A DNA stretch of 64,000 nt from Streptomyces sp. NBC_00250 (GTDB lineage Bacteria; Actinomycetota; Actinomycetes; Streptomycetales; Streptomycetaceae), in NCBI RefSeq assembly GCF_036192275.1, contig NZ_CP108088.1, forward strand, positions 620,001 to 684,000. The letters are read 5' to 3'. Shown here in pieces: positions 44,959-62,228 of the stretch (position 1 is its first letter; each line of letters opens with the position of its first letter). The notes beneath the pieces are model-generated. The model was not told where the DNA came from, made no database searches, and saw nothing but the letters and a program-made list of their open reading frames with translations. Position numbers and translations under genes: made by a program.

Positions 44959-45053
44959 CCGGTCACGGTCTCTTCCCCGCGCCGGTCACGGTCCCTTCGC
45001 CGGTACCGGTCACGGTCCCTTCGCCGGCACAGGTCACGGCCCCTTCGCCGGCA
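44959..45053 (-). repeat. 24-bp tandem repeat, four copies, spanning the MFS stop codon
   Basis: Unit CCGGTCACGGTCCCTTCGCCGG plus two bases (first copy 23 bp). The last 20 bp code the PAKGP end of the MFS protein; the other copies lie past its stop, so each carries a copy of the stop codon. Confidence 0.85.
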
Positions 45054-46299: not shown

Positions 46300-46502
46300 G
46301 CAGCGGACCGTAACCCCGCCGACCGCCGGCCGGGCGGCACGAACTGCGGCAACCGCGCAGACGTCACCCGGTCGACGACGCCACCCGAGACGGTGCCCGC
46401 GAAGGCCGGTGCTCGCGGGGGACGGACACCTCCCCCACACGGCGGAGCTGCCCGGACCGCGGGGAGGATTCCTCGTGACGCCCGTTCCACGAGGGTGGAG
46501 CC

Positions 46503-47081: not shown

Positions 47082-48473
47082 TCACGCCCTCGCTCGTGTA
47101 CGGGCGAGGGCGGCCGAACGCCAGGCCGGTCTGAGACCCGGTGTGGCGGGGCCCGACAGCCGCGGGTGGTGGAGTTCCTCCTCCCGGTCGCCGTAGAGCA
47201 TGGTCACGTTGATGCGGAGGTTCTCGTAGCCGGGGCGGAAGCGGACCGCGTCCGACGCGTGGAAGAGGTCGGAGTTGAAGATCACCGCCCGGTTCTGCCG
47301 GTAGGGGATGGTGATGCTGCGGGCCCCGCGGCTGCGCAGGAACGGGCGGATCAGGTCCTGGCGGCCGTTGTAGCTGTCGAAGCCCCAGGACAACGGGGCG
47401 TCCACGTCGTGCACCACCAGGCCGCCCGAGTGCTCGTCGGCGTTCGCGGCGTCCGGCGTGATCCAGAAGTTGACGTTGACGGCGGCGAAGTCCGCGTGCG
47501 TGGTGACGTCGGCCGGTACCTCGGGGCCGCATTTGAAGCCCCAGATCTGGCGCAGCGGGTACCGGTCCCCGATGAGCCGCGGCAGGGCGGCCCGCAGTTC
47601 CTCGGCGATCTGGGTGAGCAGGGGGCAGACGAAGCCGTCCTGCATGAGCGAGCCCAGTCGGCCGTGGTCGTAGCGGTTGCCGAACCACACCGTCGACTCC
47701 AGACTGAACCGGTACAGCTCGTCCAGCGCCTCCTGGCTGAGGAAGTCGTCGACGGTCACCACGCCGGGTGCGTTCGCCACGTACTGCTCCTCGACCGTGG
47801 CGGGATCCCAGCGGCCGGACAGGGCACGCGCCACGCGCGGGGTGTCCCGGACGTGCAGGAGACGGTTGTACGTGGGTGCGATGGCCCGGTTGGCGTCGGT
47901 GTCGAGGGGCTCCCGTGCCCCGGGGCCGTCGGCCGCCAGCCGGTCGTGCACCGACCGGTAGGCGTCGACGACCGGGTCGTACTCCGCACCCAGCACGCCC
48001 AGGTGCCGGAGGTGCAGCATCTGGTCGATGTCGTGCCGCAGTTTGGGCACGCTCAGCGGGACGACCGACCGTACGGCGGGGTCGGAGGAGCCCCAGCGCA
48101 GGCGGGCGAAGAGCAGGGCGCATCCCTCGGCGAGGGGGAAGTCGCGGCGTTCCAGGGCCACCGTGATCGCCTCGGGCAGCCACTCCTCGTCGTCGGCGCC
48201 CGCATCCGCATCCGCGCCCACAGCCGCGTCGGCACCCGCGCCCGCGCCCGGTTCGTCGCACCACGGCAGCGCCTCCTCCCAACGCCCCGAGGCCACCAGC
48301 AGGAGCACCAACTCGCGCCGGGCCGAACGGTCCTGGGGGTCGGCCCGGAGGGCGGCGCCGAGAACGCGCGCCGCCTCCTCCGTACCGCCGGAGCCGACGG
48401 TCGCCCTCACCCGGGCGACCACCGGACCGGCGTCCCACGACGCGGCCACCCGCGCCGCCCGAACCCGCATCAT
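47082..48473 (-). CDS. 2-oxoglutarate/Fe(II)-dependent oxygenase with N-terminal TPR-like region
   Basis: 463 aa. Residues ~1-150 are helical and TPR-like (AARVLGAALRADPQDRSARRELVLLLVASG), with an Ala/Asp-rich repeat insert. The C-terminal half is a prolyl-hydroxylase-type jelly roll: TTHADFAAVNVNFWITPD gives the H-x-D metal ligands, AVIFNSDLFHASDAV the distal His, and GYENLRINVTMLYG the Arg for 2-oxoglutarate. It would hydroxylate a residue of the RiPP or another protein. The ATG overlaps the stop of the previous gene (ATGA), so it is the last gene of the left RiPP operon. It ends convergent to the membrane protein. Confidence 0.85.
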   Translation of the reverse strand: MMRVRAARVAASWDAGPVVARVRATVGSGGTEEAARVLGAALRADPQDRSARRELVLLLVASGRWEEALPWCDEPGAGAGADAAVGADADAGADDEEWLPEAITVALERRDFPLAEGCALLFARLRWGSSDPAVRSVVPLSVPKLRHDIDQMLHLRHLGVLGAEYDPVVDAYRSVHDRLAADGPGAREPLDTDANRAIAPTYNRLLHVRDTPRVARALSGRWDPATVEEQYVANAPGVVTVDDFLSQEALDELYRFSLESTVWFGNRYDHGRLGSLMQDGFVCPLLTQIAEELRAALPRLIGDRYPLRQIWGFKCGPEVPADVTTHADFAAVNVNFWITPDAANADEHSGGLVVHDVDAPLSWGFDSYNGRQDLIRPFLRSRGARSITIPYRQNRAVIFNSDLFHASDAVRFRPGYENLRINVTMLYGDREEELHHPRLSGPATPGLRPAWRSAALARTRARA

Positions 48474-49243
48474 CCGAGCCCGAGCGCGCCGCGCGCCCGG
48501 AGCTCCACCGCGTACCTGGCGAGACCGTCGAGGGTCACCGTGGCGTACGGCGGCGCGAAGTCCGCGCCGATCGCGTGGGCTTCCTCGACCTGCGTGGTTC
48601 TGATCCACGTGGTCCAGGTGATGGAGGTCAGCGGTGTGATGCCCCGGGGCTCGATCCCGACGCCCTCCCGGGACTCCCCGGAAGAGTCGGCCGGCCGGCG
48701 GCCGTTCTCGTCGCCGCAGAGGGTGTGCGCGGCATGGAGGTTGACGAAGTAGTGCAGCAGGTCCTCGGTGAGCCCGTGGATGCCGGTCTCCGCCGCGCAG
48801 CCTTCGAGCAGGGCGGCGACGACGTCCTGACCGCCGTGACTCACCGTCGCCCCGCAGAAGTCGGTGAGGAACTCCGCGCCGGTGGGCACCCTGTCCGTGT
48901 GGCTGTGCACGTAGTCCTGAAGCCACTGCAGCAGCTTCGGGTTGGCGAAGACCGCGTACACGAGCCGGTCGGTGAAGACGGCCTGCTCCGCCGATACGGG
49001 CGGGACGTCGAGGTACTCCGTCAGGATCCGGGACGGCCCGGTGATGAACTGCTCACGCAGCAGAAAATCCGTCTCCATGGCCTGGAACAGGGCGTCGATG
49101 CGCCGAACGTTCGCGGCGCGGGACATCATGGTGGACCGTTGCCCGTTCCACGACCGCGCCGACGCCGGCGCGGGCCTCGCCGGTGTCAGCTCCGCCTCCT
49201 TCTCCAGCGTGCTCGCCAACTCGTTCTCCAAGGTGCTCTCCAC
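48470..49243 (-). CDS. Unknown RiPP-cluster protein, 257 aa
   Basis: Family not recognised. I use GTG 49243 because AAGGAG sits seven bases before it; a GTG at 49285 would add 14 residues. A short acidic N-terminus (STLENELASTLEKEAELTP) precedes a helical region (NVRRIDALFQAMETDFLLREQFI, QAVFTDRLVYAVFANPKLLQWLQDYV) and a C-terminal part with SITWTTWIRTTQVEEAHAIG. No cofactor motif is evident. It overlaps the previous gene by 191 bp and the oxygenase by ATGA, so it belongs to the left operon. It could be a partner of the oxygenase or a second carrier/leader-type protein. Confidence 0.75.
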   Translation of the reverse strand: MESTLENELASTLEKEAELTPARPAPASARSWNGQRSTMMSRAANVRRIDALFQAMETDFLLREQFITGPSRILTEYLDVPPVSAEQAVFTDRLVYAVFANPKLLQWLQDYVHSHTDRVPTGAEFLTDFCGATVSHGGQDVVAALLEGCAAETGIHGLTEDLLHYFVNLHAAHTLCGDENGRRPADSSGESREGVGIEPRGITPLTSITWTTWIRTTQVEEAHAIGADFAPPYATVTLDGLARYAVELRARGALGLG

Positions 49244-50156
49244 GGTCTTCTCCTTCGGTCTCGTCGATCGATCGGGGGGTTTCACGGGGTGTGTCGGGTG
49301 TGTCGGGTGTGTCGAGGTGCGGTGCGAGGAGGCTGCCCCATGCCATCCACTGCTCCGGGGCGGCGCTCACGCACCGGTCCAGCCACGCGCCGTAGGCGTC
49401 GAGGGCCGCGTCGAGGGAACCGGGCAGCCGGTCCCCGACGCGAGGGGTGATACGGCCCGCGACCTCGGGGGCGGCGACGGCGCGCGTGTCGAGTTTCCGT
49501 CGTGCCGCCAGGGCCAGCAGTCCGGTCGGCACGTCCAGCCGGCCGCCGAGCACCGACAGAGTGCGTACGTGCCGGGTGCCGGGGTAGCAGGTGTCCAGAT
49601 TCGCGACCATGACGGCGTCCGAGCCCAGCCAGCGTCGGATGTCGGCGGACCCGAGCCGCGTAAGCAGCAGGGGTTCGCCCCGTCGCAGCCGCTTCGCGTA
49701 CATCTCCCGCACGAGGGGGTTCCGGTCGTGCACGATCGGCAGGACCGGCCGGCCCGTGGCCTCCTCCACGAGCAGCGGCACCATCAGCGCGTGCCCGAGC
49801 TGGGTGGTCAGGACGAGGCGCGTCGTACCGATGCGCGCGCGCACGTCGGCGACGGCCTCGTCCCATCCGGGGAGGACCTCGCGCGGTCCGTGCCGCAGGA
49901 TGTCGTGCAGGCTCAGGTAGTACCCGGCCAGTCGGCTCACCATGGCGACGAACGGATCGGAGGGGTGCCGCCACCGTGCGGCGTACCGCGCGCCGTGGCA
50001 CCGGAGGAACAGTTTGACGTCGTCGCCGATGGTCTCGGCGAGCAGTCGTACGGCGTGCCGGTGCCGCGCCCCCTCACCGTACGGAGGAGGTGGATGCGCG
50101 GCCAGTGCCCGCAGCATGGCGACGTCCCAGTCGGAGCCGGCGATCCGGATGCTCAT
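49053..50156 (-). CDS. LPLAT-like (LpxL/PIM acyltransferase-type) protein, weak match
   Basis: 367 aa. The order of motifs resembles lysophospholipid/lipid A-type acyltransferases in degenerate form: RLVLTTQLGHALMVPLLVEEATG (usual H-x4-D region), RGEPLLLTRLGSADIRRWLGSD, VLGGRLDVPTGLLALAARRKLDTRAV. The classical H-x4-D/E is not clear, so activity is uncertain. It would attach an acyl group, perhaps lipidating the RiPP. ATG 50156 overlaps the radical SAM stop. After a 9-bp repeat (LDTPDTPDTPRETP) the frame runs on for ~80 residues of poor composition and overlaps the next gene by 191 bp; the real end may be near 49282, where another frame has a stop. Confidence 0.6.
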   Translation of the reverse strand: MSIRIAGSDWDVAMLRALAAHPPPPYGEGARHRHAVRLLAETIGDDVKLFLRCHGARYAARWRHPSDPFVAMVSRLAGYYLSLHDILRHGPREVLPGWDEAVADVRARIGTTRLVLTTQLGHALMVPLLVEEATGRPVLPIVHDRNPLVREMYAKRLRRGEPLLLTRLGSADIRRWLGSDAVMVANLDTCYPGTRHVRTLSVLGGRLDVPTGLLALAARRKLDTRAVAAPEVAGRITPRVGDRLPGSLDAALDAYGAWLDRCVSAAPEQWMAWGSLLAPHLDTPDTPDTPRETPRSIDETEGEDRGEHLGERVGEHAGEGGGADTGEARAGVGAVVERATVHHDVPRRERSAHRRPVPGHGDGFSAA

Positions 50157-51733
50157 CGCGGAGGCGCGGTGGCGAGGTCGGGTGCCCCGGCCGCCGCCTG
50201 GGACTTCGCCCGCTCGTAGTAGGCGCGGAGCGCGGAACCGGGACGGGACACGTCCTCCAGGATTCGGGGGAAGAGCGCGAGCCGGGTCGTGCATTCGAGC
50301 TCGTCCACCGAGTACAGGGAGCCGTTGTTGATCAGGGCGCGGGCCGGGCAGGTGCCCGCGCACTGGTGCAGCCAGGGGCAGGAGGAGCACGGCGCGTCGT
50401 TGAGGAGCCACTGCTCCCGGTCGCGCAGGGCCGCCGCCGCCGGGGTGTTCCGGCTGCGTACGGTCAGCGAGCCGTCGGCGATCGGCAGGACCGTGCGTCC
50501 GGGTGGGGGTGACACCGCGGCCCTGGGCAGCAGTTGGAACGCGGGATGGTAACTGCAGTCGCAGGCACGGACGGAGCCCACCGCATCGAGGACCAGCAGG
50601 TCGTTGGAGGCACCGCAGGGCATCTTCATGCACATGTTGGGGCGTTCGACGGTGAGGAACGGCTCGATCAGCTGCACCAGGTTGGTGAGGTACGGGGGTT
50701 CCAGGTCGCCGTCGAGGATCTCCGTCAGCCGTCGGTCGAGGAAGGCGGCGAACGTCTGCCGGAAGCGCTGGGTCTCGGGCTTGTCGTCGGCGCGCCCCTC
50801 CGCGTCGGCGGGGAGCATCTTCCAGCTGTGCACGCCCATGCTCCGGAAGAACTCCCACACGCGGTCGAGTTCGTCCGGTGTGGTGTCGGTGCCGACGACG
50901 CTGATGTAGCCGACCTCGTCGCGCATGAACTCGGGGAAGCGGTCGAAGTTCTCGGCGATCCGCGCGAAGGTGCCACGGCCGCGGTGGTCGACGCGGTGCC
51001 GGTCGTTGATGTCCTGCGGCCCGTCCAGGGAGACGCCGACCGTGAACGCGTACCGGCGCAGGAACGCGACGACGTCTTCGGTGAAGTGCCGGCCGTTGGT
51101 CTGGACGGTGAAGTGCACGGACGCCCCCACCTCGGTGGCGCGCAGTTCCGCGAACTCCACGAGCTCGCGGATCTGGCCGAACCGCAGCATGGGTTCGCCG
51201 CCGTGGAACATCAGGGTCAGACGGCGCCCGGGAACCAGGCATTCGGTGATGAGCCGCCTGGCCACCTCGGAGGTCATCCGGCCCGGCCAGCGTCCGCTGT
51301 CGAAGTCGTAGCAGTAGTCGCAGGCGATGTCGCAGGCGCCGGTGAGCTTCAGGAGGAGCGCCGTCGGCGGCTCGGCGCCGCCGGACCCGCCGCCACGTGA
51401 GCCGTCTCCGTCACCGTCGCCGCGCGGTGCGGGTACGGCGCGGACGCCCGTGCGGCCGCCGACGAAGACCAGGCCCGCGTCGTAGAGCGCCCGCACGGTG
51501 CCGGCCGCGTCGGGGAAGCCCGGCCAGGCGGTGAAGTCGGCGACGCTCGTGCCGTCCAGTGCGTCGAGCATCGGGTAGAGGGCGGCGGGCAGGCGGAGCC
51601 AGCCCGGCCGTCCGTGGGGCAGCAGGAGGAGTTCGTCGTCCGCGACGGGGATGCGGTAGTGGCGGGCGACGCGGATCGGCTCGCCGCCGTCCAGGTCCTT
51701 CCAGCGGGGCAGCGGAGCGATGCTGTACTTCAT
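50153..51733 (-). CDS. Radical SAM/SPASM peptide maturase with N-terminal RRE-like domain
   Basis: 526 aa. Residues ~15-95 form a PqqD/RRE-like winged helix for leader binding (YRIPVADDELLLLPHGRPG, MLDALDGTSVADF). After a Gly/Asp linker the radical SAM core has CDIACDYCYDF (CxxxCxxC), LMFHGGEPMLRFG and VQTNGRHFTEDVV, with VGVSLDGPQDINDRHR. The C-terminal SPASM region supplies the auxiliary cluster cysteines (MPCGASNDLLVLD, ACDCSYHP, CSSCPWLHQCAGTCPARAL). Such enzymes form C-C or C-S crosslinks in RiPPs. It starts seven bases after the precursor-like gene stop, the classic precursor-maturase order. Confidence 0.93.
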   Translation of the reverse strand: MKYSIAPLPRWKDLDGGEPIRVARHYRIPVADDELLLLPHGRPGWLRLPAALYPMLDALDGTSVADFTAWPGFPDAAGTVRALYDAGLVFVGGRTGVRAVPAPRGDGDGDGSRGGGSGGAEPPTALLLKLTGACDIACDYCYDFDSGRWPGRMTSEVARRLITECLVPGRRLTLMFHGGEPMLRFGQIRELVEFAELRATEVGASVHFTVQTNGRHFTEDVVAFLRRYAFTVGVSLDGPQDINDRHRVDHRGRGTFARIAENFDRFPEFMRDEVGYISVVGTDTTPDELDRVWEFFRSMGVHSWKMLPADAEGRADDKPETQRFRQTFAAFLDRRLTEILDGDLEPPYLTNLVQLIEPFLTVERPNMCMKMPCGASNDLLVLDAVGSVRACDCSYHPAFQLLPRAAVSPPPGRTVLPIADGSLTVRSRNTPAAAALRDREQWLLNDAPCSSCPWLHQCAGTCPARALINNGSLYSVDELECTTRLALFPRILEDVSRPGSALRAYYERAKSQAAAGAPDLATAPPR

Positions 51734-51740
51734 CGTGGCG

Positions 51741-52463
51741 TCAGCAGCAGGTGGTCTTGGACCAGGACGGGGGCAGCAGTTCGTCGCTGCCCGACTCGTC
51801 CACCTGACGGACGTCGAAGCGGCCGAACCGGTCGACGTCGAACCCGCTGTCCCTCAGATAGTCGTGGATCTCCGGGCTGACCCGTGAGGTGAAGGGAACG
51901 CCGTCGCCGCCGAGGAGGCCCCGGTTGTTCGCCGCGATCGTCTCCAGGTCCACGCCGTGGGTGCGCAGATAGGAGCGGGCCCGCTCCGAGAGCCGGCAGT
52001 CCCCGAACAGGGCGGTCGCCACGTCCTCGGTGAGCTCGGCCGACTCGGCGATGTCCCGTGCGGTGGTGCCGGGGAGCTTGATGTTGATCTCCAGCGCGTC
52101 GGAGGGCCGCTCCGTGCCGTCGTAGGCGTCGTACGTGAACGTCATGAGGGCACAGCCGCCCGAGGTGAGGTCGATGCCGTGCCGTCGGCAGACCTCGGCG
52201 AGCTTGTCGCTCGGGACGAACTCCACGGCGCCCGGGGACGGGCAGACACCGAGGGGCTCGCGTGCGGCGAGCGAGGCGAGGTGGTTGAAGTCGACGCCGT
52301 GCTCAGCCAGCACGCCGCTCAGCTCGGGCCTGACGCGCTCGTTGCCGAAGAGGAAGCGGGCGAGGGACTGCTCGAAGCGGGCGCGCTGCCCGGCCGGCAC
52401 GTCCACGGGGACGAGGACCTCGATCTGGACGAGGGGGACGCTCTTGGTCTTCTGGGGGGTCAT
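51741..52463 (-). CDS. Precursor-like protein with repeated leader and Trp-Ser-Lys-Thr-Thr-Cys-Cys C-terminus
   Basis: 240 aa, no known family recognised. The protein contains an internal duplication: residues 38-66 (LFGNERVRPEL ... AEHGVDFNHLASLA) align with 151-178 (LFGDCRLSERA ... RTHGVDLETIAA), each followed by a shorter related helix (CRRHGIDL near 95; RDSGFDVDRF near 208). A short acidic spacer leads to the end PPSWSKTTCC. The layout is a large folded leader with a short C-terminal core. The core's Ser, Thr, Cys, Trp and Lys are the residues used by the LanB, YcaO, radical SAM and Cys-decarboxylase enzymes encoded around it. It lies between the decarboxylase gene and the radical SAM gene. 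GGAG precedes the ATG. Confidence 0.78.
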   Translation of the reverse strand: MTPQKTKSVPLVQIEVLVPVDVPAGQRARFEQSLARFLFGNERVRPELSGVLAEHGVDFNHLASLAAREPLGVCPSPGAVEFVPSDKLAEVCRRHGIDLTSGGCALMTFTYDAYDGTERPSDALEINIKLPGTTARDIAESAELTEDVATALFGDCRLSERARSYLRTHGVDLETIAANNRGLLGGDGVPFTSRVSPEIHDYLRDSGFDVDRFGRFDVRQVDESGSDELLPPSWSKTTCC

Positions 52464-52488: not shown

Positions 52489-53088
52489 TCATGAGGGAGG
52501 AGTTTGCGCCGGTACGGCGGTCAGCGCGGCGAGTGCCGCGGCGACCTCCGCCACCGGTGGTGCGGCACCGTCGCGGGGATGCAGCACCTGGGCTCCGGCG
52601 GCCATGAGCCGCCGGACGTTCTGCCGTACCAGGGCGCCGTTCCCCATGCGCGGGTGCATCGACGGCACGACCAGGGTGGGAATCCCCGTCGCGCACAGAT
52701 AGGTGGTGGAGGCCAGGTCGGTCGCGAGGCCGCCGGCCACCCGCCCGAGGAACCCGGCCGAGGCCGGGTAGACCAGCACCCGCCGCGCGACGTCGGTGAG
52801 CCAGACGTGCAGCGGCCGGAGCTCGGGCCCGGTGGTCTCGCAGGTCAGCACCGGGCAGCGGCCGAGGTGGCGCACCGCCGCCGGGGTCACGAACCGCCGT
52901 GCCGCCTCGGTGAGGATCACGGCCGTCGGTCCCGGAAGTACCGACGACAGTTCGTGGAGGAGGCCGCCGATGTTGACCGCGGCGACCGATCCGGTGCCGA
53001 TGACGAGCGTGAGCCCGTCGCGGGAGGCCGTCTCGGTGAACGCCTCGGTGAGACCGTGTGGGAGCGGCGCACCGATGTCGTCGAACAT
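52489..53088 (-). CDS. Flavoprotein of the HFCD/PPC-decarboxylase family (peptidyl-Cys decarboxylase candidate)
   Basis: 199 aa, the size of EpiD/MrsD-type flavin decarboxylases. LTLVIGTGSVAAVNIGGLL is the FMN-binding start, VILTEAARRFVTPAAV a middle signature, and LVYPASAGFLGRVAGGLATDLASTT and LVVPSMHPRMGN the later ones. VPSMHPRMGN takes the place of the P-A-M-N-x-x-M motif in degenerate form. The catalytic His may be one of those in LRPLHVW or MHP; the usual His position was not securely aligned. It is the first gene of the left RiPP operon, 25 bp before the precursor-like gene, whose C-terminal Cys is the natural substrate. CGGAG precedes ATG 53088. Confidence 0.85.
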   Translation of the reverse strand: MFDDIGAPLPHGLTEAFTETASRDGLTLVIGTGSVAAVNIGGLLHELSSVLPGPTAVILTEAARRFVTPAAVRHLGRCPVLTCETTGPELRPLHVWLTDVARRVLVYPASAGFLGRVAGGLATDLASTTYLCATGIPTLVVPSMHPRMGNGALVRQNVRRLMAAGAQVLHPRDGAAPPVAEVAAALAALTAVPAQTPPS

Positions 53089-54285
53089 CCTTGTCTCCGG
53101 GTGAGGTGGGTCGGTTCAGCGCCTCGCGGGACCGGAGCGGAAGCGCCATGGCTTCATCGATAGCAGGACCGGATGGGCTCGCCGGGGAACAGGCCCGCGA
53201 CTCCCGACACTCCATCCCAACAGCGGTCCGACATGTGGGGTACGGCCCTCAGCGCGGCATTTCGTCCGGCTCATGCTGCCGAGGCGCGGGGGAATTCCGG
53301 CCCGTGCAGGGGCGGTTCGAGTTCCGGTTTCCGGATTCCGGTTCCCTGATTCCCATCGACGCGCCATACGCCTTGGGGCCGCCTCGGAATTCCGGAAGTC
53401 CCGGCGCGTTCCTGATCGTGGTCGACACCTGTCCGTCCCGGCTGCGGGACGCCTCGGCGGCCTGTCCGGCCCTCGCTCGCGGCGGTCCCGCCGCACCGGC
53501 TGACGGCGGCGCCCGGCTCCAGGCCTTGACCCCGTGCACGTACTCCGTTGGGGCGGCGCACGCAGTGTTCGCCGGCCGCTCTTCCGCGAGTCTCGCGCTG
53601 TTGGCCGGAACTCACCTGGCCGGCCTGGCGGCGGGTGCCGGTCCGGGCTCCCCGGTGACCAAGGGCGTCGACTCACCCGCCGTTCGCGCGGGGGATGTTC
53701 TCTTGAGATGCGTCGTTCACGCTGGTCGCGGCGGCATGTCGGCGGAGGGCCGAGGGCGGCTGGCCACCCGGGTCGCACCCCCGTGGAGTTCATCGCCCCT
53801 CATGGCCACCGAGGCTCATGTCGGACGGTCGGGAAGCAGCCATTCTTTGCCTCCGGCGTACCTCATGGGCGATCTTCCGCGGGTGGCGGCTCGTTCCCGA
53901 CGGTCGTCCGGATAGCGGACAGAGGGTGTCATGACCTCATCACCGCCTCCCCTCGTCCTCATCGCATCCGCGTCGCTGCACGCACGCGCCGCACCGTCAA
54001 CCGCTCACCCGCAGATGTCCGGAAGGACTCAGGCCCCGTCCCCTCCCGGACGCCGCCGCTGTACCTTCCTCCTGACCCTGACGCCGACCGGGGTCAGGGT
54101 CAGGAGGAAGGTACAGCAGCCCAGTGCGTCGCCCCTGCCTCGTGCCGTCCCTCTGCCTTCCCGGTGGTTCGCCATGCCCGCTGCACCCGCCCGGCCCCCG
54201 ACCTCCCGCCCCCGGCCGCCGCACGACTCCGGCCGACCGTAGGGGACCCACCCGGCACCAGCGGACGAGGAAGGCGAACACGACT
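53089..54285. other. 1.2-kb divergent region between the two RiPP arms
   Basis: No gene is supported: frames up to ~440 codons exist but have unsuitable codon bias and no homology that I recognise. Composition is patchy, with TTCCGG/GGATTCC repeats near 53310-53400 that lower GC. The region must hold the left-arm promoter and the SARP promoter. It contains the long inverted repeat listed at 54058-54117. A decayed gene cannot be excluded. Confidence 0.55.
54058..54117. repeat. 25-bp perfect inverted repeat upstream of the SARP gene
   Basis: 54058-54082 is exactly complementary to 54093-54117 around a 10-base spacer; two further pairs form beyond a mismatch. It ends 168 bases before the SARP start. 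It may be a terminator insulating the two arms, a leader attenuator, or a remnant of a small element. No T tract follows. Confidence 0.9.
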
Positions 54286-56229
54286 GTGCGATTCCAACTG
54301 CTCGGGCCCCTCAGCGTCACCGACGGGCGGGACGTCGTGGTGCTCCCGCCCTCCAAGCCGACCGCGCTGCTCGCCGCACTGCTCCTCCGCCCGGGCTCCA
54401 TCGTCTCCACCGACCGCCTGCGCGACATCGTCTGGGGCGAGGAACACCCACCGACGGCCAAGACCGCCCTGCAGAGCTGTGTCCTGCGGCTGCGGCGGCT
54501 CTTCGCCAAGTACGGCATCGAGAACCAGGCCGTCGTCGCGGTGGCCGGCGGCTACCGCATCGACGCCGACACGGGGACGCTCGACCTGCTCCACTTCCGC
54601 CGCCTCGTCGAGCAGGCCACCGCCTCCGGGAACGACTCCGAGCTGTACACCCTGCGGACTTCCCTCGCCCTGTGGCAGGGAGCCCTGCTCTCCAACGTCC
54701 CCTCCGACCTGCTGCACCGGGACGAGGTGCCCCGACTCGCGGAGGAGCGGCTGCGGGTTCTGGAGCGCGTCTGCGACATCGAACTGGAGCACGGCCGATG
54801 TCGCGAAGCCCTCGTTGATCTTTGGGAGGTTACGCGCGTATACCCCGCCCACGAGCGGTTCGCCGAGCAACTGATCGAGGCGCTGTACCGGACGGGCCGG
54901 CAGACCGAGGCGCTCGCGGAGTACCGCCGGATCAAGGGGCACCTGAGGGAGCGGCTCGGCGTCGATCCGCGGGCCGAACTCCAGCGTCTGGAACTGGCGA
55001 TCCTGCGGGGTGAGGACCTCGGCCGCCTCGACGCGGCGCGGGAGCGGGCCGCCGCGACCACGGCCCCGGGCGGGCTCTTACCGACAGCGGCGGCCGCCGC
55101 ACCCTCCCGTGTTCCCGCGCCGGCGGATCAGACCGGGGCCCACGGACCGCAAGCCCTCCACACCTCTGTCCCCGCTTCCCCTCCTCCGCCTCCGCCGATT
55201 CCGACCGTGCCCGGCTTCACCGGGCGCGAGGGCGAAGTCGACTCCCTGGTCCGGCTGTTGACAGCCGGCGGGCCCCGCGAGGAAGCACCGCGAACCCCGT
55301 TCGCCGTCCTCTCCGGAGCGCCCGGCATCGGCAAGACCGCCCTCGCGCTCCACGTCGCCCATCTGGTGAGCGGTCACTTTCCCGGCGGCTCCGTCCTGGT
55401 GCCGCTGACCCGTCCGGACGGAAGCCCCCGCCCGGCGGAGGAGGCCGCCGACGAGGTCCGGCGGGCGCTGCCCGCCGTGCCCGGGGCGGACCGGGGCCCC
55501 GCCCTTCTCGTCCTCGACGATGTCGTCCACCCCGATCAGGTCCGCCCCCTGCTGACCGCGCACGCCTGCGGTGCGGCGATCGTCACCAGCCGGATGGGGC
55601 TGGCCGCGCTCGTCGCCACCCACGGCGGCACCGTGCACCGGCTCGGCGCTCTCGATCCGGAGCAGTCGCAGGCGCTCCTCACCGCGGTCGTCGGCCGGGA
55701 GCGGATCGCCGCCGAGCCCGCCGCGGCGCTCCCCCTCGCGACCGCGTGCGGCCACCATCCGCTCGCCCTGCGCATCGCCGCCGCTCGGCTGCTCACCCGG
55801 CCCCGGCTCCGCCTCGCGGACTACACCGACTGGCTGCTGCACGACCCCGTCGGCCGGCTCAGCCTCGCCGACGATCCCCAGATGTCGGTGCCGCACCGGC
55901 TGGACGAGGCCCTGAAGCGGCTCCCGCCGGCGCTCGCCGAGGCCCATCTGCGGCTGGCCGCGTCACCCCACGACCCGCTGACCACCGCACGGGCCGCCGC
56001 CGCCCTCGGCCTTCCGGAGGAGACGACGGAGCAGGTCGTCGAGCGGCTCCTCGACGCCGGTTTCCTGGAGGAGGGCCGGCCGGGCGCCTTCTGGACGCAC
56101 GATCTGCTGCGCGCGCACGCCCGCCGTGCGGCGGGCCCCTCCCCCGGCCACGCCCCGGCCCTCCTCCGCCCGCCCCGCGACGGGGAGTTCCCGCAGCTGG
56201 ACGGCACCAGGCCCGCCGCCCTGAGGTGA
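54286..56229 (+). CDS. SARP-family regulator with NB-ARC domain (AfsR-type, short), one TTA codon
   Basis: 647 aa. Residues 1-95 are the OmpR-like DNA-binding domain (VRFQLLGPLSVTDGRDVV, RDIVWGEEHPPTAKTAL, VVAVAGGYRI). The bacterial transcriptional activation domain follows to ~240 (LDLLHFRRLVEQATASG, EALAEYRRIKGHLRERLGVD). After a linker, NB-ARC covers ~305-600: VLSGAPGIGKTALALHVAHL, LLVLDDVVHPDQVRPLL, VTSRMGLAAL, CGHHPLALRIAAARLL. The TPR tail of AfsR is missing. Codon 265 (55078-55080, linker) is TTA, making the cluster activator bldA-dependent. GTG 54286 has AGGAAGG upstream. It directly precedes the TOMM genes (76-bp gap), so it is the likely pathway-specific activator. Confidence 0.93.
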   Translation: MRFQLLGPLSVTDGRDVVVLPPSKPTALLAALLLRPGSIVSTDRLRDIVWGEEHPPTAKTALQSCVLRLRRLFAKYGIENQAVVAVAGGYRIDADTGTLDLLHFRRLVEQATASGNDSELYTLRTSLALWQGALLSNVPSDLLHRDEVPRLAEERLRVLERVCDIELEHGRCREALVDLWEVTRVYPAHERFAEQLIEALYRTGRQTEALAEYRRIKGHLRERLGVDPRAELQRLELAILRGEDLGRLDAARERAAATTAPGGLLPTAAAAAPSRVPAPADQTGAHGPQALHTSVPASPPPPPPIPTVPGFTGREGEVDSLVRLLTAGGPREEAPRTPFAVLSGAPGIGKTALALHVAHLVSGHFPGGSVLVPLTRPDGSPRPAEEAADEVRRALPAVPGADRGPALLVLDDVVHPDQVRPLLTAHACGAAIVTSRMGLAALVATHGGTVHRLGALDPEQSQALLTAVVGRERIAAEPAAALPLATACGHHPLALRIAAARLLTRPRLRLADYTDWLLHDPVGRLSLADDPQMSVPHRLDEALKRLPPALAEAHLRLAASPHDPLTTARAAAALGLPEETTEQVVERLLDAGFLEEGRPGAFWTHDLLRAHARRAAGPSPGHAPALLRPPRDGEFPQLDGTRPAALR

Positions 56230-56305: not shown

Positions 56306-58546
56306 ATGACCCTTACGTCGTACGCGGAGATCGCCGGAACCCGGCCCCGAGTCCGTCGAGATGTCCTGTTCACCCAGACCCCGAACGGCGTGATCTTCCA
56401 CAACGCCGACGGCGGTTTCCAGCTCACCGCCAAGTCCGGCTACCGGTTCGCCACGCTGCTCATGCCGTACCTGGACGGCAGCAGAGCGGTCGAGGAGATC
56501 TGCGCGGGCTTCGGCGACACCCAGAAGGCCATGGTGGGCGAGCTGGTGCAGGCGCTCTACGGGCGCGGCTTCGCCCGTCCCGTTCCGGCGCCGGAGGAGG
56601 CGGCGCCCGTGCCCGCTCCGCCCGTCGCCGCCCGCTTCGCCCCGCAGATCGCCTACATCGACCACTACGCCGATGCCGCCGACGCCCGGTTCGCCCGCTT
56701 CCGGGCGACCCGGGTCGCGGTCATCGGCGACGGGCCGGTGGCCCGCTGGTGCGTGCTCTCCCTCGTCCGGAACGGCTGCGCCGCCATCGGTGTCGACCGC
56801 TCCCTCGCCGAGGGCACCGCCGGGGTGACTCCGGAGGAGTTCGCGGCCGTCCGCGGGGAGGTCGCCGCGCTCGCCGAGGAGGGCTGCCCCGTCGAACTGC
56901 CGCTGCTGCCCGAGCCGGTGGCGGGCCGACCGCGGGAGGGCTGGTCCGCGTACGAGGGGTACGACGTGGTGGTGGCCGCCGCCGGGCCCGGCGTTCCGGC
57001 CGTCCTGCTGCCGCTGCTGCGGGAGGGCATGCCGCAGGGCCGTACGCTCCTGCCCGCCTGGACGTTCGGCGGCTCGGCCGTCGTCGGCCCGGCCATGACC
57101 GCCGAGGCGGCGTCCTGCTGGTCCTGCGCCGCCCTGCGGCTCGGGGCGGCCGGTGGTGCCGCCGCCTCGGACGCCGCCGAGCTGTGGAGCGGTCTCGCCC
57201 TCGGCACCGGTACGCCCGGGGTCCAGCCGACCGGACCGCTCGCGGCGATGCTCGGAAACCTGCTCGGGTACGAGGTGTTCCGCCTGGTCACCGGGGCGCT
57301 GCCGGCCGAGACCCGGGACCGGGTGCTCGTCCAGTCCATGGCGAGCCTCGACGTCGCTTCGGAGCCGCTGCTCGCCCACCCGAGCTGTCCGTTCTGCTCG
57401 TCCCCGGTGGGGCTGCCCGAACCGGTCGACCTGGCGTCGGCCCCGGCACGACCCGCGTTCCTGCCCACCGTCGCCACCGCCCCCGACGACGACGCCGCCC
57501 AGGGGCCGCTGGCCGAGCTCGAACGACGTTCGGCGCTCGTCCGCCCGTTCACCGGGGTCTTCACGTCCTACGCCGACGAGCCGCTGACGCAGACGCCCCT
57601 CAAGGTGGGCTCGGTCGTCCTCGGCCTGGGTGCGCGGGGCACCCGTACGATCACCGCCTTCGACGTGCACCACACCGCCGGAGCTCGGCTGCGGGCGCTG
57701 AACGCTGCGGCCGCGGTCTACGCCGAACACGTGCTCCCCGCCGCCGCCTCCGCCGGTCCGCTCGACGAACTGACGGCGGTGGCCCCGGACACGCTCACGA
57801 TCGCGTCGGGAACCGGCGGCTCCGACGGTACGACCGCCTGGACGCCGGCCACCTCTCTGATCACCAAGGAGACCGTACGGGTGCCCAGCGGCGCGGTACG
57901 TCCCTTCGGGCGGGACAACGCCCACCGTCGCTTCGAGCCGACCCGGGCCGGGTCCGGGGCGGGCTCGGACCTGCCGGAGGCGGCGGCCACCGGTCTGCTG
58001 TCGGCGCTCGCCCACGACGCCCTGCGCCGTGCCGTCGCCGGCTCCGGCGAGGTCGCGCTGCTCGCGCCCGAGGTCTTCGGCGAGGACCCCGAGACGAGGT
58101 TCCTGCTCCGGTCGGCCGCCCTCCTCGGCCTCACGGTCGAACTGCTCGACCTCGGCGAGCGGGCGTACTCGGGGGCGTCGGTCGTCCTGGCGAGGACGGC
58201 CGGGGGCACGGGTGCCGGCCGTTGGGCTGTCGGCGCCGGCCTGGACCTGACCTCGGCCGCCGTCGACGCCGTACGGGACCTCCTCGGGGCGGCCCAACTG
58301 GCCGGGGAGGACGTGGTCACCGACGACGGAGACCCCCTCCTTCGGGACCTGGACGCGACCCTTGTGCCGGTCACCGGGGTCGAGCCCGCCGGGCTACCGG
58401 GCGAGCCCATGGAGTGGGCCCGGGTCCTGGACCGCCTCGCCGCCGCCGGCCGCGACGCCCTGGTCGCGCCGACGCACGCCACGGACCTGCCGGCCGGGGG
58501 CATCCACACCGTGCGTGTCCTGCTCACCCGGGGCGGCACTCGATGA
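56306..58546 (+). CDS. TOMM precursor leader peptide-binding protein (ThiF-like, YcaO partner)
   Basis: 746 aa. Residues ~15-95 form an RRE-type winged helix for leader binding (DVLFTQTPNGVIFHNADGG, LMPYLDGSRAVEEICAGF, LVQALYGRGFARP). A degenerate ThiF/E1-like Rossmann domain follows (ATRVAVIGDGPVARWCVLSLV), lacking a full ATP-binding arginine set. Two CxxC pairs, SCWSCAALR and SCPFCSSP, are the usual structural zinc ligands. The C-terminal half (from ~395) resembles the ocin/TOMM extension. It delivers the precursor to the YcaO enzyme. The ATGA overlap with the YcaO gene shows coupling. The start at 56306 has GAGAGG upstream. Confidence 0.9.
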   Translation: MTLTSYAEIAGTRPRVRRDVLFTQTPNGVIFHNADGGFQLTAKSGYRFATLLMPYLDGSRAVEEICAGFGDTQKAMVGELVQALYGRGFARPVPAPEEAAPVPAPPVAARFAPQIAYIDHYADAADARFARFRATRVAVIGDGPVARWCVLSLVRNGCAAIGVDRSLAEGTAGVTPEEFAAVRGEVAALAEEGCPVELPLLPEPVAGRPREGWSAYEGYDVVVAAAGPGVPAVLLPLLREGMPQGRTLLPAWTFGGSAVVGPAMTAEAASCWSCAALRLGAAGGAAASDAAELWSGLALGTGTPGVQPTGPLAAMLGNLLGYEVFRLVTGALPAETRDRVLVQSMASLDVASEPLLAHPSCPFCSSPVGLPEPVDLASAPARPAFLPTVATAPDDDAAQGPLAELERRSALVRPFTGVFTSYADEPLTQTPLKVGSVVLGLGARGTRTITAFDVHHTAGARLRALNAAAAVYAEHVLPAAASAGPLDELTAVAPDTLTIASGTGGSDGTTAWTPATSLITKETVRVPSGAVRPFGRDNAHRRFEPTRAGSGAGSDLPEAAATGLLSALAHDALRRAVAGSGEVALLAPEVFGEDPETRFLLRSAALLGLTVELLDLGERAYSGASVVLARTAGGTGAGRWAVGAGLDLTSAAVDAVRDLLGAAQLAGEDVVTDDGDPLLRDLDATLVPVTGVEPAGLPGEPMEWARVLDRLAAAGRDALVAPTHATDLPAGGIHTVRVLLTRGGTR

Positions 58547-60540
58547 GAGCCGAGAACGCGACCCGGCCGAGAGCCGTGGCGGCGGCCTCGGCGGGAGCCG
58601 CCTCCGCGGCTGCCCCCGAGGCGTCCGCGCGCGCCGGGTCCTCGTTCCGGTTCGCCGTCGCCCTGCGCGCGGCACTCGACGAGATCGGGGACTCCTCGGG
58701 CGGACCGGTCCCGGCCGTGACCGTCTCCCCGCTCGGCGTCCGGGACGCGTACGCCGACGCGGGCTCGTCCGACGGTCAGGAGTCGGGCGACGTGTCCGCC
58801 GCCGCGGTGCGCGGCCGGCTCCCCGTGCATCTCTACGGACGTCAGGTCATCGTCGGTCCGTGGCCCGCGGAACCCGGAGGCGCCGGGTGCGCGACCTGCC
58901 TCCGGCGCCGTTGGCAGGGCGTGCGGTCCGTGCCCCTGCGCGAGGGACTTGAGCTCGGGTCCGAGACCCGGTCGGCGGGCGACTGGCCGTACGCCGTCCC
59001 CTTCGCCGCCACCGCCGTGGCCGCGCTCGTGGCGGGGCTCGCGGACGCGGGGCCGGTCGCCGGCCCGTACCCGCGGGTCCATCTGCTCGACCTCGACGCC
59101 ATGACCGTACGGAGCCATCCGCTCGTACCCGACCCGGAATGCCCGTCCTGCGGGACGCCCGAGGCGGACACGGCCGAGGCCGCCACGCTGACGCTGCGGG
59201 CGGCGCCCAAGTACCGGCCCGGTGTCTTCCGGGTCCGCCGGATCGAGGACTACCGGCTGCCCCTGGACGCCTTCGCCAACCCCCACTGGGGGGCGATCGG
59301 CCCGTCGGTCGTCTGCGATGTCGCGTCCACCACCACGTCGGCCACCGTCGGCTGCTTCTCGTCCCGCTCCGGGGAGTACCTGCGCGAGACGTTCTGGGGC
59401 GGCCACGCCGACACCTATGAGCGCAGCCAGTTCATCGGCGTGCTCGAAGGCCTTGAGCGCTACGCGGGGATGCGCGCCCGGACGCGTACCGCCCGTCTCA
59501 CGGCCTCCCTCGACGACCTCGGCCCGACGGCCGTGGACCCGCGCGAGACCGGTCTGTACGCGGACGCCTTCCACCGCGACAACCCTCGCGTCAGGCCTTT
59601 CACCCCGGACCGGGCGATCCCCTGGGTGTGGGGCTGGTCGCTGCGCGACGAAGAGCCGCGCGCGGTGCCGGAGGTCCTCGCCTACTACCACGCGCCGGGC
59701 CTGGAGAACCGGTTCGTGCAGGAGAGCTCCAACGGGTGCGCGTCCGGGGGCAGTACGGAGGAGGCCGTCTACTTCGGGCTGATGGAGGTCGTCGAGCGGG
59801 ACGCCTTCCTGCGGGCCTGGTACGGGCAGGTCCCCCTGCGTGAGATCGACCCGTCGACCAGCACCCGGCCGAGCACCCGGCACATGGTCGACAGGCTTGC
59901 CATGTACGGCTACCGGGCACGCTTCTTCGACACCCGCGCCGACCTCCCGATCCCGGTGGTCACCGCGTGTGCCGAGCGCTTCGACGGCGGCACGGGCCGC
60001 ATGTGCTTCGGTGCGGGGGCGGGACTGGACCCCGAGTCGGCGCTGGACTCGGCGCTCTGCGAGATCGCCACCGACTCCGTCAACCTCGTCGGGCGGACCC
60101 GGCGCGACGAGGAACGGCTGCGGGCGATGGCCGCCGACTTCGACCGGGTCACCACGCTCCACGACCATCCCCTGGTCTACGGCGTCCCGGAGATGGGCCG
60201 CCACGCCGACTTCCTGCTGCGGCAGCCGGATCCCCGACCGTCCCTGGTCGTCGCCGACCTCGCGTGGCCGGACGCCGACGGCGCCACCGTGGCCACGGAC
60301 CTGCGCGAGGACCTGCTGCGCGTGGTGGGCGCGGTGACGGCCCGCGGCTTCGACGTGGTGGTGGTCGACCAGACGCTGCCCGAGCAGCGTGCGCTCGGCC
60401 TGCACACCGTGAAGGTCCTGGTGCCCGGTCTGCTGCCCATCGACTTCGGCTGGTCCCGGCAGCGGGCCCGTCACATGCCCCGGATGCGTGCGGCCCTGGG
60501 GGCCGCCGGTCTCCACCCCGCACCCCACCCCTTCCCGTAG
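58543..60540 (+). CDS. YcaO-type azoline-forming cyclodehydratase
   Basis: 665 aa. The N-terminal ~215 residues carry CATCLRRRW and CPSCGTPE zinc cysteine pairs. The YcaO domain follows: SFVQESSNGCASGGS-type ATP region (here FVQESSNGCASGGSTEEAV), YFGLMEVVERDAFLRAWYG (Glu pairs for Mg-ATP), SQFIGVLEGLERYAGM, and DSALCEIATDSVNLVGR. The protein ends in PHPFP, matching the Pro-rich C-terminus that azoline-forming YcaO enzymes need. It uses ATP to cyclise Cys/Ser/Thr onto the preceding carbonyl, giving thiazolines or oxazolines. Coupled to the leader-binding protein upstream; 42 bp before the dehydrogenase. Confidence 0.94.
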   Translation: MRAENATRPRAVAAASAGAASAAAPEASARAGSSFRFAVALRAALDEIGDSSGGPVPAVTVSPLGVRDAYADAGSSDGQESGDVSAAAVRGRLPVHLYGRQVIVGPWPAEPGGAGCATCLRRRWQGVRSVPLREGLELGSETRSAGDWPYAVPFAATAVAALVAGLADAGPVAGPYPRVHLLDLDAMTVRSHPLVPDPECPSCGTPEADTAEAATLTLRAAPKYRPGVFRVRRIEDYRLPLDAFANPHWGAIGPSVVCDVASTTTSATVGCFSSRSGEYLRETFWGGHADTYERSQFIGVLEGLERYAGMRARTRTARLTASLDDLGPTAVDPRETGLYADAFHRDNPRVRPFTPDRAIPWVWGWSLRDEEPRAVPEVLAYYHAPGLENRFVQESSNGCASGGSTEEAVYFGLMEVVERDAFLRAWYGQVPLREIDPSTSTRPSTRHMVDRLAMYGYRARFFDTRADLPIPVVTACAERFDGGTGRMCFGAGAGLDPESALDSALCEIATDSVNLVGRTRRDEERLRAMAADFDRVTTLHDHPLVYGVPEMGRHADFLLRQPDPRPSLVVADLAWPDADGATVATDLREDLLRVVGAVTARGFDVVVVDQTLPEQRALGLHTVKVLVPGLLPIDFGWSRQRARHMPRMRAALGAAGLHPAPHPFP

Positions 60541-60582
60541 CGGCCGCCCGTCCCGCACGCCGTCCGAAAGGAGGCCGACCCC

Positions 60583-62217
60583 ATGGGGTACGCCCATGAG
60601 TACGCCGATGCCGTCCTGCACCGCGGCCGGGTTCCGATGGAACCCGCCGACTTCGTCCCCGACTGGCCCGACGGCCCGCGCAGGGGGAAGTTCTACCCCG
60701 GCGTGGAGTCCTACGCCCTGCCCGACGGGGACGACCTGGCCGACGCGCCCGCGAGGCTCGGTCTCCTCCCTCCGGCCCCCGAGGACGGCAGTCCCGGCGG
60801 GGACGGTGCTCCCGGAGGGCACCGCGGCTTCACGCTGCCGCTCCTGTCCTCGATGCTCAAGGACTCGTACGGACTGACCGGCCGCCGTCTGGGCATCCAG
60901 GCCAACAGCGACCTGTCCGGGCTGCCGTTCTACACCCACGCCAACTGGTCGCGCGGCACGGCGGGCGGCGGCGGCCTGTACCCGGTCGGGGTGTACTGGG
61001 CCTCGGGTCCGTCGGGCCCGCTCACGCCCGGGATCCACTACTACGACGTCCATCGGCACGCCGTGCAGCGGCTGTTGACGGGGGACGTGACGGCCCGGGT
61101 CCGCGAGGCGCTGGGACCGGACGCGCCCGCCGAGGCGCTGGAGACCGACCAGTACCTGATCCTCGGCGTCAAGTACTGGCAGACGACCTTCAAGTACAAC
61201 AGCTTCGGCTATCACGTGGTCTGCACCGATGTCGGGACGCTCGCGCAGACGTGGCGGATCTGGGCCGCCGCCCACGGGCTGCGCACGGCACCCGTCCTGT
61301 GGTTCGACGAGCCGCGGCTGAACGGCCTGCTCGGCACGGACGGCGAGGAGGAGGGCGTCTTCGCCGTCGTGCCCCTGCGCTGGGAGGGCGCCCGCTCCGC
61401 ACCGCGCACGGCCGGCCCGGACGGCCCCGACCCGGCGGTGCGACACCGGGACGTCGAGCGTTCCCGTACCGTCGTCGAGTTCCCCACGGTGCTCGCGATG
61501 CACGCGGCGACCGTGGCCGACGCGGACGGCCGACCCGCGCCCGGGGCCCTCACCGCGGCGGCGGCCCGGCCCGTCCCCGAGGGCGGCACCCGGGTCACCC
61601 TGCCCGCCCCCTCCTTCCCCGAAGTGCCGGTGCGTCAGGTCCTGCGCACCCGGCGCAGCAGCTTCGGCCGCTTCGACGCGACCGGCCCCGTCACACCCGG
61701 TCAGCTGTCCTCCGTGCTCGCGGCCTGCGCGGCGGCCTCCTTCGGCGGGGAGACGGATCCGGACGGCACGCTCCGGCAGGTCCGCCTGTACGCCTTCGTC
61801 AACCACGTCGCGGGCATCGCCCCCGGCGCGTACGTCTACGACTCCGACGCGGGCGATCTCGCACTCGTCGTCCCCGGCCCGCAGGGGGCGTTCCTCCAGG
61901 AGAACTACTTCCTGGCCAACTACAACCTGGAGCAGGCCGGTGTGGTCATCGTGCCGACGGTCCGGACCACGGCCGTCCTGGACGCGGTCGGGGACCGGGG
62001 CTACCGGCTGGCCGTCGGCACGGCGGGGGCCGTGGCGCAGACGTTCTATCTGGCCGCGTCCGCCCTCTCGCTCGGTGCGGGAGTGGCGCTGGGCTTCGAC
62101 AACGTGTCGTTCGTCGAACGGCTCGGCCTGGAAGGCACCGCCGAGGCACCCCTGCTGATCATGCCGCTCGGCAACGAGCGACCCGGCCCCGCCGACTTCC
62201 GCCACGAGATCGCCTGA
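60583..62217 (+). CDS. SagB-type double nitroreductase (azoline dehydrogenase)
   Basis: 544 aa, twice the usual length, with two nitroreductase-like halves. The first (to ~270) has NWSRGTAGGGGLYPVGVYW and YLILGVKYWQTTFKYNSFGYH; the second (from ~345) has PVRQVLRTRRSSFGRFD, QENYFLANYNLEQAGVVIV and RLAVGTAGAVAQTFYLAASAL, and ends LLIMPLGNERPG. FMN enzymes of this type oxidise azolines to azoles in TOMMs and thiopeptides. AAGGAGG precedes ATG 60583. It sits between YcaO and LanB genes, so some of the product's azolines are probably aromatised. Confidence 0.92.
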   Translation: MGYAHEYADAVLHRGRVPMEPADFVPDWPDGPRRGKFYPGVESYALPDGDDLADAPARLGLLPPAPEDGSPGGDGAPGGHRGFTLPLLSSMLKDSYGLTGRRLGIQANSDLSGLPFYTHANWSRGTAGGGGLYPVGVYWASGPSGPLTPGIHYYDVHRHAVQRLLTGDVTARVREALGPDAPAEALETDQYLILGVKYWQTTFKYNSFGYHVVCTDVGTLAQTWRIWAAAHGLRTAPVLWFDEPRLNGLLGTDGEEEGVFAVVPLRWEGARSAPRTAGPDGPDPAVRHRDVERSRTVVEFPTVLAMHAATVADADGRPAPGALTAAAARPVPEGGTRVTLPAPSFPEVPVRQVLRTRRSSFGRFDATGPVTPGQLSSVLAACAAASFGGETDPDGTLRQVRLYAFVNHVAGIAPGAYVYDSDAGDLALVVPGPQGAFLQENYFLANYNLEQAGVVIVPTVRTTAVLDAVGDRGYRLAVGTAGAVAQTFYLAASALSLGAGVALGFDNVSFVERLGLEGTAEAPLLIMPLGNERPGPADFRHEIA

Positions 62218-62228
62218 GGGGGCTCACG

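Follow-up and report, generated by a model that had tools for sequence, protein, structure and literature searches.

A candidate RiPP-type cassette of Streptomyces and Streptacidiphilus with a conserved Trp-x-Lys/Arg-x-Thr-Cys-Cys tail on a duplicated leader domain

The window, meaning the whole stretch of 64,000 nucleotides that was analyzed, comes from Streptomyces sp. NBC_00250 (620001-684000 of contig C1 in a 9.27-Mb genome; G+C 72%). On its minus strand lie four genes, in the order HFCD flavoprotein, precursor, radical SAM/SPASM enzyme and LPLAT-fold protein, with a 4-base overlap between the last two. These constitute what we refer to as the cassette, and the features that concern us are as follows.

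47082..48473, minus strand: TPR protein (TPR_16, 4.5e-7) whose C-terminal part may resemble a 2OG-Fe(II) oxygenase; membership of the cassette uncertain
48470..49285, minus strand: 271-aa protein with no family match, in Streptomyces loci only, uncertain member of the cassette
49053..50156, minus strand: LPLAT-fold protein, 367 aa (PatA/LpxM-like fold in a predicted model)
50153..51733, minus strand: radical SAM/SPASM enzyme, 526 aa, predicted tail crosslinker (Pfam Radical_SAM, 1.1e-17)
51741..52463, minus strand: precursor protein, 240 aa, with a duplicated folded leader and a C-terminal tail
51744..51764, minus strand: codons of the predicted core heptapeptide W-S-K-T-T-C-C (residues 234-240), from tail conservation in homologues
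51765..51794, minus strand: variable linker (residues 224-233) of low pairwise identity, between leader domain and tail
52489..53088, minus strand: HFCD-family flavoprotein, 199 aa, predicted oxidative decarboxylase of the C-terminal Cys (Pfam Flavoprotein, 4.7e-13)
54124..56229, plus strand: SARP-family protein between both operons, a possible regulator (BTAD, 2.8e-31)
56306..64000 and on to C1:690990 (L007:8933-10990), opposite strand to the cassette: YcaO/LanB operon

The precursor reading frame begins with ATG and its translation ends in ...LLPPSWSKTTCC, i.e., with WSKTTCC last, just as the initial annotation of this DNA had described for a 240-residue protein. The nearest proteins retrieved by single-sequence search are of Streptomyces origin. 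An internal repeat (38-66 against 151-178, with a weaker second helix in each half) had also been pointed out, and the repetition proves to be both solid and wider than that. Local alignment of residues 8-112 with residues 120-224 scores 53, a value matched by none of 2000 shuffles (mean 25.2, maximum 47). Profile-profile comparison of the halves, which has no shuffle control of its own, gives a probability of 90.9% (P 1.1e-6) over 96 columns, covering almost the entire half. In the AlphaFold2 model (mean pLDDT 80, pTM 0.75) the main elements are E11-17/H24-39/H46-54/H59-66/H86-94/E104-110 in the first half and E124-130/H142-153/H160-168/H173-179/H197-205/E216-223 in the second, and a low-confidence strand (E234-237) is placed in the tail. 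Across 28 sequences chosen from 44, the leader has 23 invariant columns, including C74 and C156.

Consistent with the earlier statement that no described family was known to have such a precursor, searching Pfam, NCBIfam, PHROGs and PADLOC with the window's protein gave no family with an E-value as low as 0.01, and fold searches returned no confident match. Set against the tautomerase superfamily (4-OT, MIF), for which Foldseek gives E 0.18 at best and a TM of about 0.2, the predicted fold has helical insertions. The likeness may be just a common arrangement, and we claim no relation. Weak candidates were set aside, namely PF02817 E3_binding (E 0.078), acetylcholine-binding protein (E 0.034), the NF045560 aroma_sacti_dom profile (matched by a single member out of 28, at E 0.011 and under its cut-off) and RecX (4 of 28, best 0.0023, far below cut-off); the remaining weak matches were likewise dropped.

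Homologues of the precursor number 43 in total (31 by single-sequence search and 42, of which 12 were new, by profile search), and 37 of them end exactly in W-x-[KR]-[TAV]-T-C-C. Among these 37 tails, positions 1 (W), 5 (T), 6 (C) and 7 (C) are invariant, position 3 holds K (35 tails) or R (two), and positions 2 and 4 vary, with S, T, E, K or R at position 2. In 37 full-length sequences (the window's precursor and 36 homologues, with the linker scored from residue 223), pairs of sequences are on average 52% identical over the leader, 11.5% over the linker and 84% over the last seven residues, and the distance from the G214 position to the tail Trp ranges from 15 to 28 residues. Judged by these identities, the W-x-[KR]-x-T-C-C tail is under far stronger constraint than the linker that precedes it. 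Given that 37/43 homologues carry the exact C-terminal motif, the tail is not a matter of chance.

The precursor shares the aromatic-x-x motif of triceptides, as W-x-[KR] in 37/43, and this conserved unit, to which the Trp-Ser-Lys singled out earlier belongs, is doubled in five of the 43 (P0031, P0048, P0050, P0051 and P0053). These five read W-T-K-[TA]-[VI]-W-S-[KR]-[TA]-T-C-C, from which we take W-x-K to be repeated as a unit. Darobactin contains W-S-K.

Homologues that lack the terminal Trp and Cys residues had been named beforehand as evidence against a precursor. There are such homologues, six in all, yet the 37 others keep the tail. Two of the six (P0028 and P0032) have odd ends. The other four (P0055, P0057, P0058 and P0059) are divergent and all stop at the same place, just past the last strand of the domain. 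In the tree they group with the tailed P0052 with support of 1.000 (0.316 for the four alone), and we read their loss of the tail as probably secondary. The group nevertheless counts against any strict rule that the domain always bears a tail.

Two Streptacidiphilus loci (G062 and G054) have these four genes with order and orientation unchanged, and there identity to the window is 53%-54% for the precursor, 62%-64% for the radical SAM enzyme, 66%-67% for the flavoprotein and 56%-57% for the LPLAT-fold protein. In Streptomyces sp. NBC_00572, cassette proteins are 92%-99% identical to those of the window. In all four loci read, the series flavoprotein, precursor, radical SAM/SPASM enzyme and LPLAT-fold protein is conserved as a unit. 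Precursor homologues include records from Streptacidiphilus anmyonensis and Streptacidiphilus melanogenes. For the LPLAT-fold protein, eight of 15 homologues apparently share a genome record with a precursor homologue (locus tags 10 apart in four), and seven (P0036, P0037, P0039, P0042, P0043, P0044 and P0046) have no precursor homologue paired with them, although clusters were collapsed at 90% identity, which might mask such pairing.

The cassette is rare and patchily distributed. It was found in 2/14 genomes of the genus of G062 and, credibly, in at least three of 394 genomes of the family, where a fourth match (G347) was rejected as a precursor homologue (E 6.5e-4, 31% identity, inside a long frame that appears noncoding by eye). 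At least one of 394 genomes of the class has it, namely the window's own, and the matches in at least two of 396 genomes of the phylum are the window's own and a rejected stretch in G1182 of just 37 residues (E 8.5e-4). The LPLAT-fold profile finds at least three of 392 genomes of the genus: the window's own, a second from that species, and G024, which has a remnant. Plasmids gave no match and viral contigs none that was confirmed, so that nothing points to carriage by plasmids or viruses. By eye on translations, the neighbors of the Streptacidiphilus cassettes look like hydrolases, regulators, a dehydrogenase and peptidoglycan-binding proteins. In about 20 kb around each, no gene for proteolysis, export or immunity was recognized as belonging to the shared cassette, using a crude ORF caller that missed the flavoprotein and LPLAT-fold genes themselves and could overlook a small gene.

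To judge from the sequences, the precursor family has the anatomy of a RiPP precursor, i.e., a conserved folded leader, a variable linker and a conserved short C-terminal core, encoded beside modifying enzymes; this includes the conserved leader and C-terminus next to a radical SAM/SPASM gene that the initial annotation had proposed to look for among homologues. We consider it reasonably probable that the 240-aa protein serves as precursor in a RiPP-type pathway whose leader, of about 225 residues, is folded, internally duplicated and unusually large. Against this reading are the six of 43 homologues without a tail, the shared cassette's want of a recognized protease or exporter, and enzymes that score below the NCBIfam cut-offs listed. 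Among the literature matches listed (open access, titles and the starts of abstracts), we found no description of the tail or of the gene combination, and the letters of the tail, used as a query of the open-access literature, retrieved no paper.

The alternative that survives best, although we regard it as rather unlikely, is that the protein is a lasting one and its modified tail a built-in cofactor or metal site from which nothing is released. By analogy with the cofactors that radical SAM enzymes build from protein residues, vicinal thiols, perhaps with an enethiol, would sit beside a crosslinked Trp-Lys. A folded leader of about 220 residues, with its 23 invariant columns, C74 and C156 among them, is under more constraint than docking of enzymes should require, and around the Streptacidiphilus cassettes no transporter or protease was recognized by crude ORF calling. 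The radical SAM enzyme also matches the profile of the quinohemoprotein amine dehydrogenase maturase (2.6e-32, below cut-off), but that profile is only fourth by E-value of the 68 matched. The hypervariable linker resembles a cleavage or tether region, the patchy distribution (at least three credible cases in 394 family genomes) suits secondary rather than core metabolism, the fold searches gave no confident match, and both Streptomyces loci have an MFS transporter gene (45034-46440 in the window) close by. Were the tail nonetheless retained, the radical SAM enzyme and the flavoprotein might make W-x-K-x-T-C-C into a protein-bound prosthetic group on the duplicated domain, in which a crosslinked Trp-Lys beside a Cys/enethiol pair would bind a soft metal or carry electrons, with the degenerate LPLAT-fold protein as its assembly chaperone, a version to which we give the same low credence.

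Returning to the RiPP reading, which chemistry the radical SAM enzyme performs must be argued from context. Its motifs are CX3CX2C at 134 and CX2CX5CX3C at 449, and like the triceptide systems (XncB, OscB, YhhB) and darobactin, the locus has a SPASM radical SAM enzyme beside a precursor in which an aromatic-x-x motif is conserved. Triceptide precursors are short. Here, by contrast, a duplicated and folded domain of some 225 residues makes up the leader, the precursor has a flavoprotein and an LPLAT-fold protein as further partners, and the crosslink is a predicted one. For the best 25 of 68 NCBIfam profiles matched, the enzyme is under the cut-off; these matches include PapB, DynA, YhhB and other peptide maturases. 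Its chemistry is therefore not assignable by family, and it falls outside the known cyclophane-forming families, given that YhhB, AmcB, FxsB, GrrM/OscB and XyeB are all below their curated cut-offs. Residues 1-107 gave no RRE or PqqD match at E up to 5 once weak matches were filtered out, and PADLOC returned only viperin matches to the radical SAM core.

It is conceivable, but we think unlikely, that this enzyme instead makes Cys thioethers of the sactipeptide or ranthipeptide type and that W-x-K is merely a recognition element. The top NCBIfam profile by E-value is indeed that of the ranthipeptide maturase PapB (1.6e-35, under its cut-off), and both cysteines are invariant in 37/37 tails. However, the tandem repeats copy W-x-K without a cysteine, the C-terminal Cys is the expected substrate of the decarboxylase, and the profile of DynA, a Trp-crosslinking enzyme, aligns over residues 128-482, compared with 124-391 for PapB.

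The initial annotation had also noted that Thr-Thr-Cys-Cys suits LanB, YcaO and Cys-decarboxylase chemistry. The last of these is upheld by the flavoprotein gene that adjoins the precursor; the LanB and YcaO part is not, in that the corresponding genes were not found in about 20 kb around G062 and G054 and are mostly missing in NBC_00572. The divergent operon of the window encodes a ThiF-like protein, YcaO, a nitroreductase, a split LanB, an M50 peptidase, an ABC transporter and a second YcaO. NBC_00572 has the cassette intact, with 96% DNA identity on that side, and is missing about 15 kb of this operon, starting at ThiF residue 315. The part that matches L006:17256 runs straight into one that matches L007:12231, and because the ThiF gene is cut short at this point we read the gap as a deletion (in one assembly). 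With the window's SARP, ThiF, YcaO, nitroreductase, LanB, M50, ABC and MFS proteins as queries, no homologue was found at E 1e-3 in about 20 kb around either G062 or G054. We thus rejected the operon as the defining pathway, and neither a TOMM-type YcaO cyclodehydratase nor an AviCys-type dehydratase (the window's LanB as query) is kept with the precursor in G062, G054 and NBC_00572.

A narrower proposal is that in the window's strain the operon also acts on Thr-Thr-Cys-Cys, so that thiazoles or dehydrobutyrine would be added to whatever the radical SAM enzyme makes. The operon is adjacent, with the SARP gene between, and none of the eight small ORFs in its gaps that passed a filtered scan is precursor-like by eye. 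Its own precursor could, however, sit elsewhere in the genome or have escaped the filter; together with the retention of the cassette in NBC_00572 and the absence of operon homologues around either Streptacidiphilus cassette, this makes the proposal quite improbable.

The flavoprotein makes 13 PDB sequence matches, among them CypD and, in order, 6jls, a flavoprotein decarboxylase that we take to be TvaF (6.3e-12), then 7cfu, CoaBC (6tgv), MrsD and EpiD. Its best NCBIfam profile is CoaBC (6.7e-24, 84.7 bits, cut-off 219.7), whereas it scores 16 against a cut-off of 215 for CypD, and in this respect it is unlike the CypD-type decarboxylases. It thus appears to match CoaBC about as well as the peptide decarboxylases, and PF02441 flavoproteins are found outside RiPP clusters too, according to the decRiPPter report (PMC7794033). 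That it is a phosphopantothenoylcysteine decarboxylase or other HFCD enzyme unrelated to the tail is nevertheless very improbable: CoaBC is its best profile, though far under cut-off, and third among its PDB matches, above MrsD and EpiD, but the genome already has a separate full-length CoaBC (407 bits, above cut-off), so that the flavoprotein is not the genome's CoaBC, and its gene adjoins that of the Cys-ending precursor in 4/4 loci read.

An HFCD flavoprotein next to a peptide ending in Cys is what the peptidyl-Cys decarboxylases EpiD, MrsD, TvaF, CypD and RosD also present, and in this combination the locus agrees with AviCys-type RiPPs. Unlike the lanthipeptide, thioamitide and linaridin systems with such decarboxylases, the cassette travels without a LanB dehydratase homologue, and as neither Streptacidiphilus locus has one we do not expect a classical AviCys ring. 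It should be noted that the flavoprotein of the window reads 'PSMHPRMGN', with Gly at a position where the three other loci have Trp ('PRMWN', 'PRMWA'). The 'PSMHPRM' region is presumably the substrate clamp, and the copy in the window's strain may therefore be weakened.

The fourth cassette protein (49053-50156) has the LPLAT fold in a predicted model and lacks the catalytic HX4D/E motif of the acyltransferases of that fold. Compared with PatA and LpxM, the 16 members of its family have no HX4D/E at any common position, and they share an invariant Gln119 and an invariant His143-Asp144 pair. Slx4, a weak match in 3/16 members (best 0.0039), was rejected. Beyond it, the genes at 48470-49285 and 47082-48473 (the latter with its start picked by eye, and with an E-value of only 0.2 for 2OG-FeII_Oxy_3) are kept in NBC_00572 and were not found at the G062 and G054 Streptacidiphilus loci. 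Both survive in G024 beside fragments of the LPLAT-fold gene, and we conclude that the cassette was seemingly lost there. The MFS transporter gene downstream of the cassette is likewise present in NBC_00572 and not in the Streptacidiphilus loci. Separately, the protein encoded at 42806-44410 contains three near-identical 'KYRADAALGDCLRTF'-type repeats and is conserved in NBC_00572.

For the product of a RiPP-type pathway we propose a Trp-Lys/Arg cyclophane together with a decarboxylated Cys, because W-x-[KR] and the C-terminal Cys suit the two recognizable enzymes. XncB is described as joining Trp C6 to the C-beta of an Arg or Asn located at i+2 (PMC11002830). RosD is described as converting a C-terminal Cys to an enethiol, and LanX-type partners as shielding such enethiols (PMC12291118). 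In the scheme we envisage, the leader domain would dock the enzymes, and the radical SAM enzyme would bond the Trp ring to the Lys or Arg two residues on, giving a three-residue cyclophane, one per W-x-K unit and hence two in the tandem members. An enethiol would arise at the last Cys when the flavoprotein decarboxylates it oxidatively, a reaction for which PMC7794033 gives a mass loss of 46 Da. The LPLAT-fold protein, with no acyltransferase motif, may bind or cyclize the labile thiol-bearing tail rather than acylate it, and a host protease may cleave within the variable linker.

If this reading is true, it would have consequences for how such pathways are sought. Genome mining with decRiPPter, which included Streptomyces, accepted as candidates only proteins under 100 aa (PMC7794033), and a 240-aa precursor would therefore be passed over. 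The cassette would then represent a RiPP-type pathway missed by size-limited precursor mining, in which radical SAM crosslinking is paired with C-terminal Cys decarboxylation and no LanB-type dehydratase is conserved, and an LPLAT-fold protein would gain a role other than acyl transfer.
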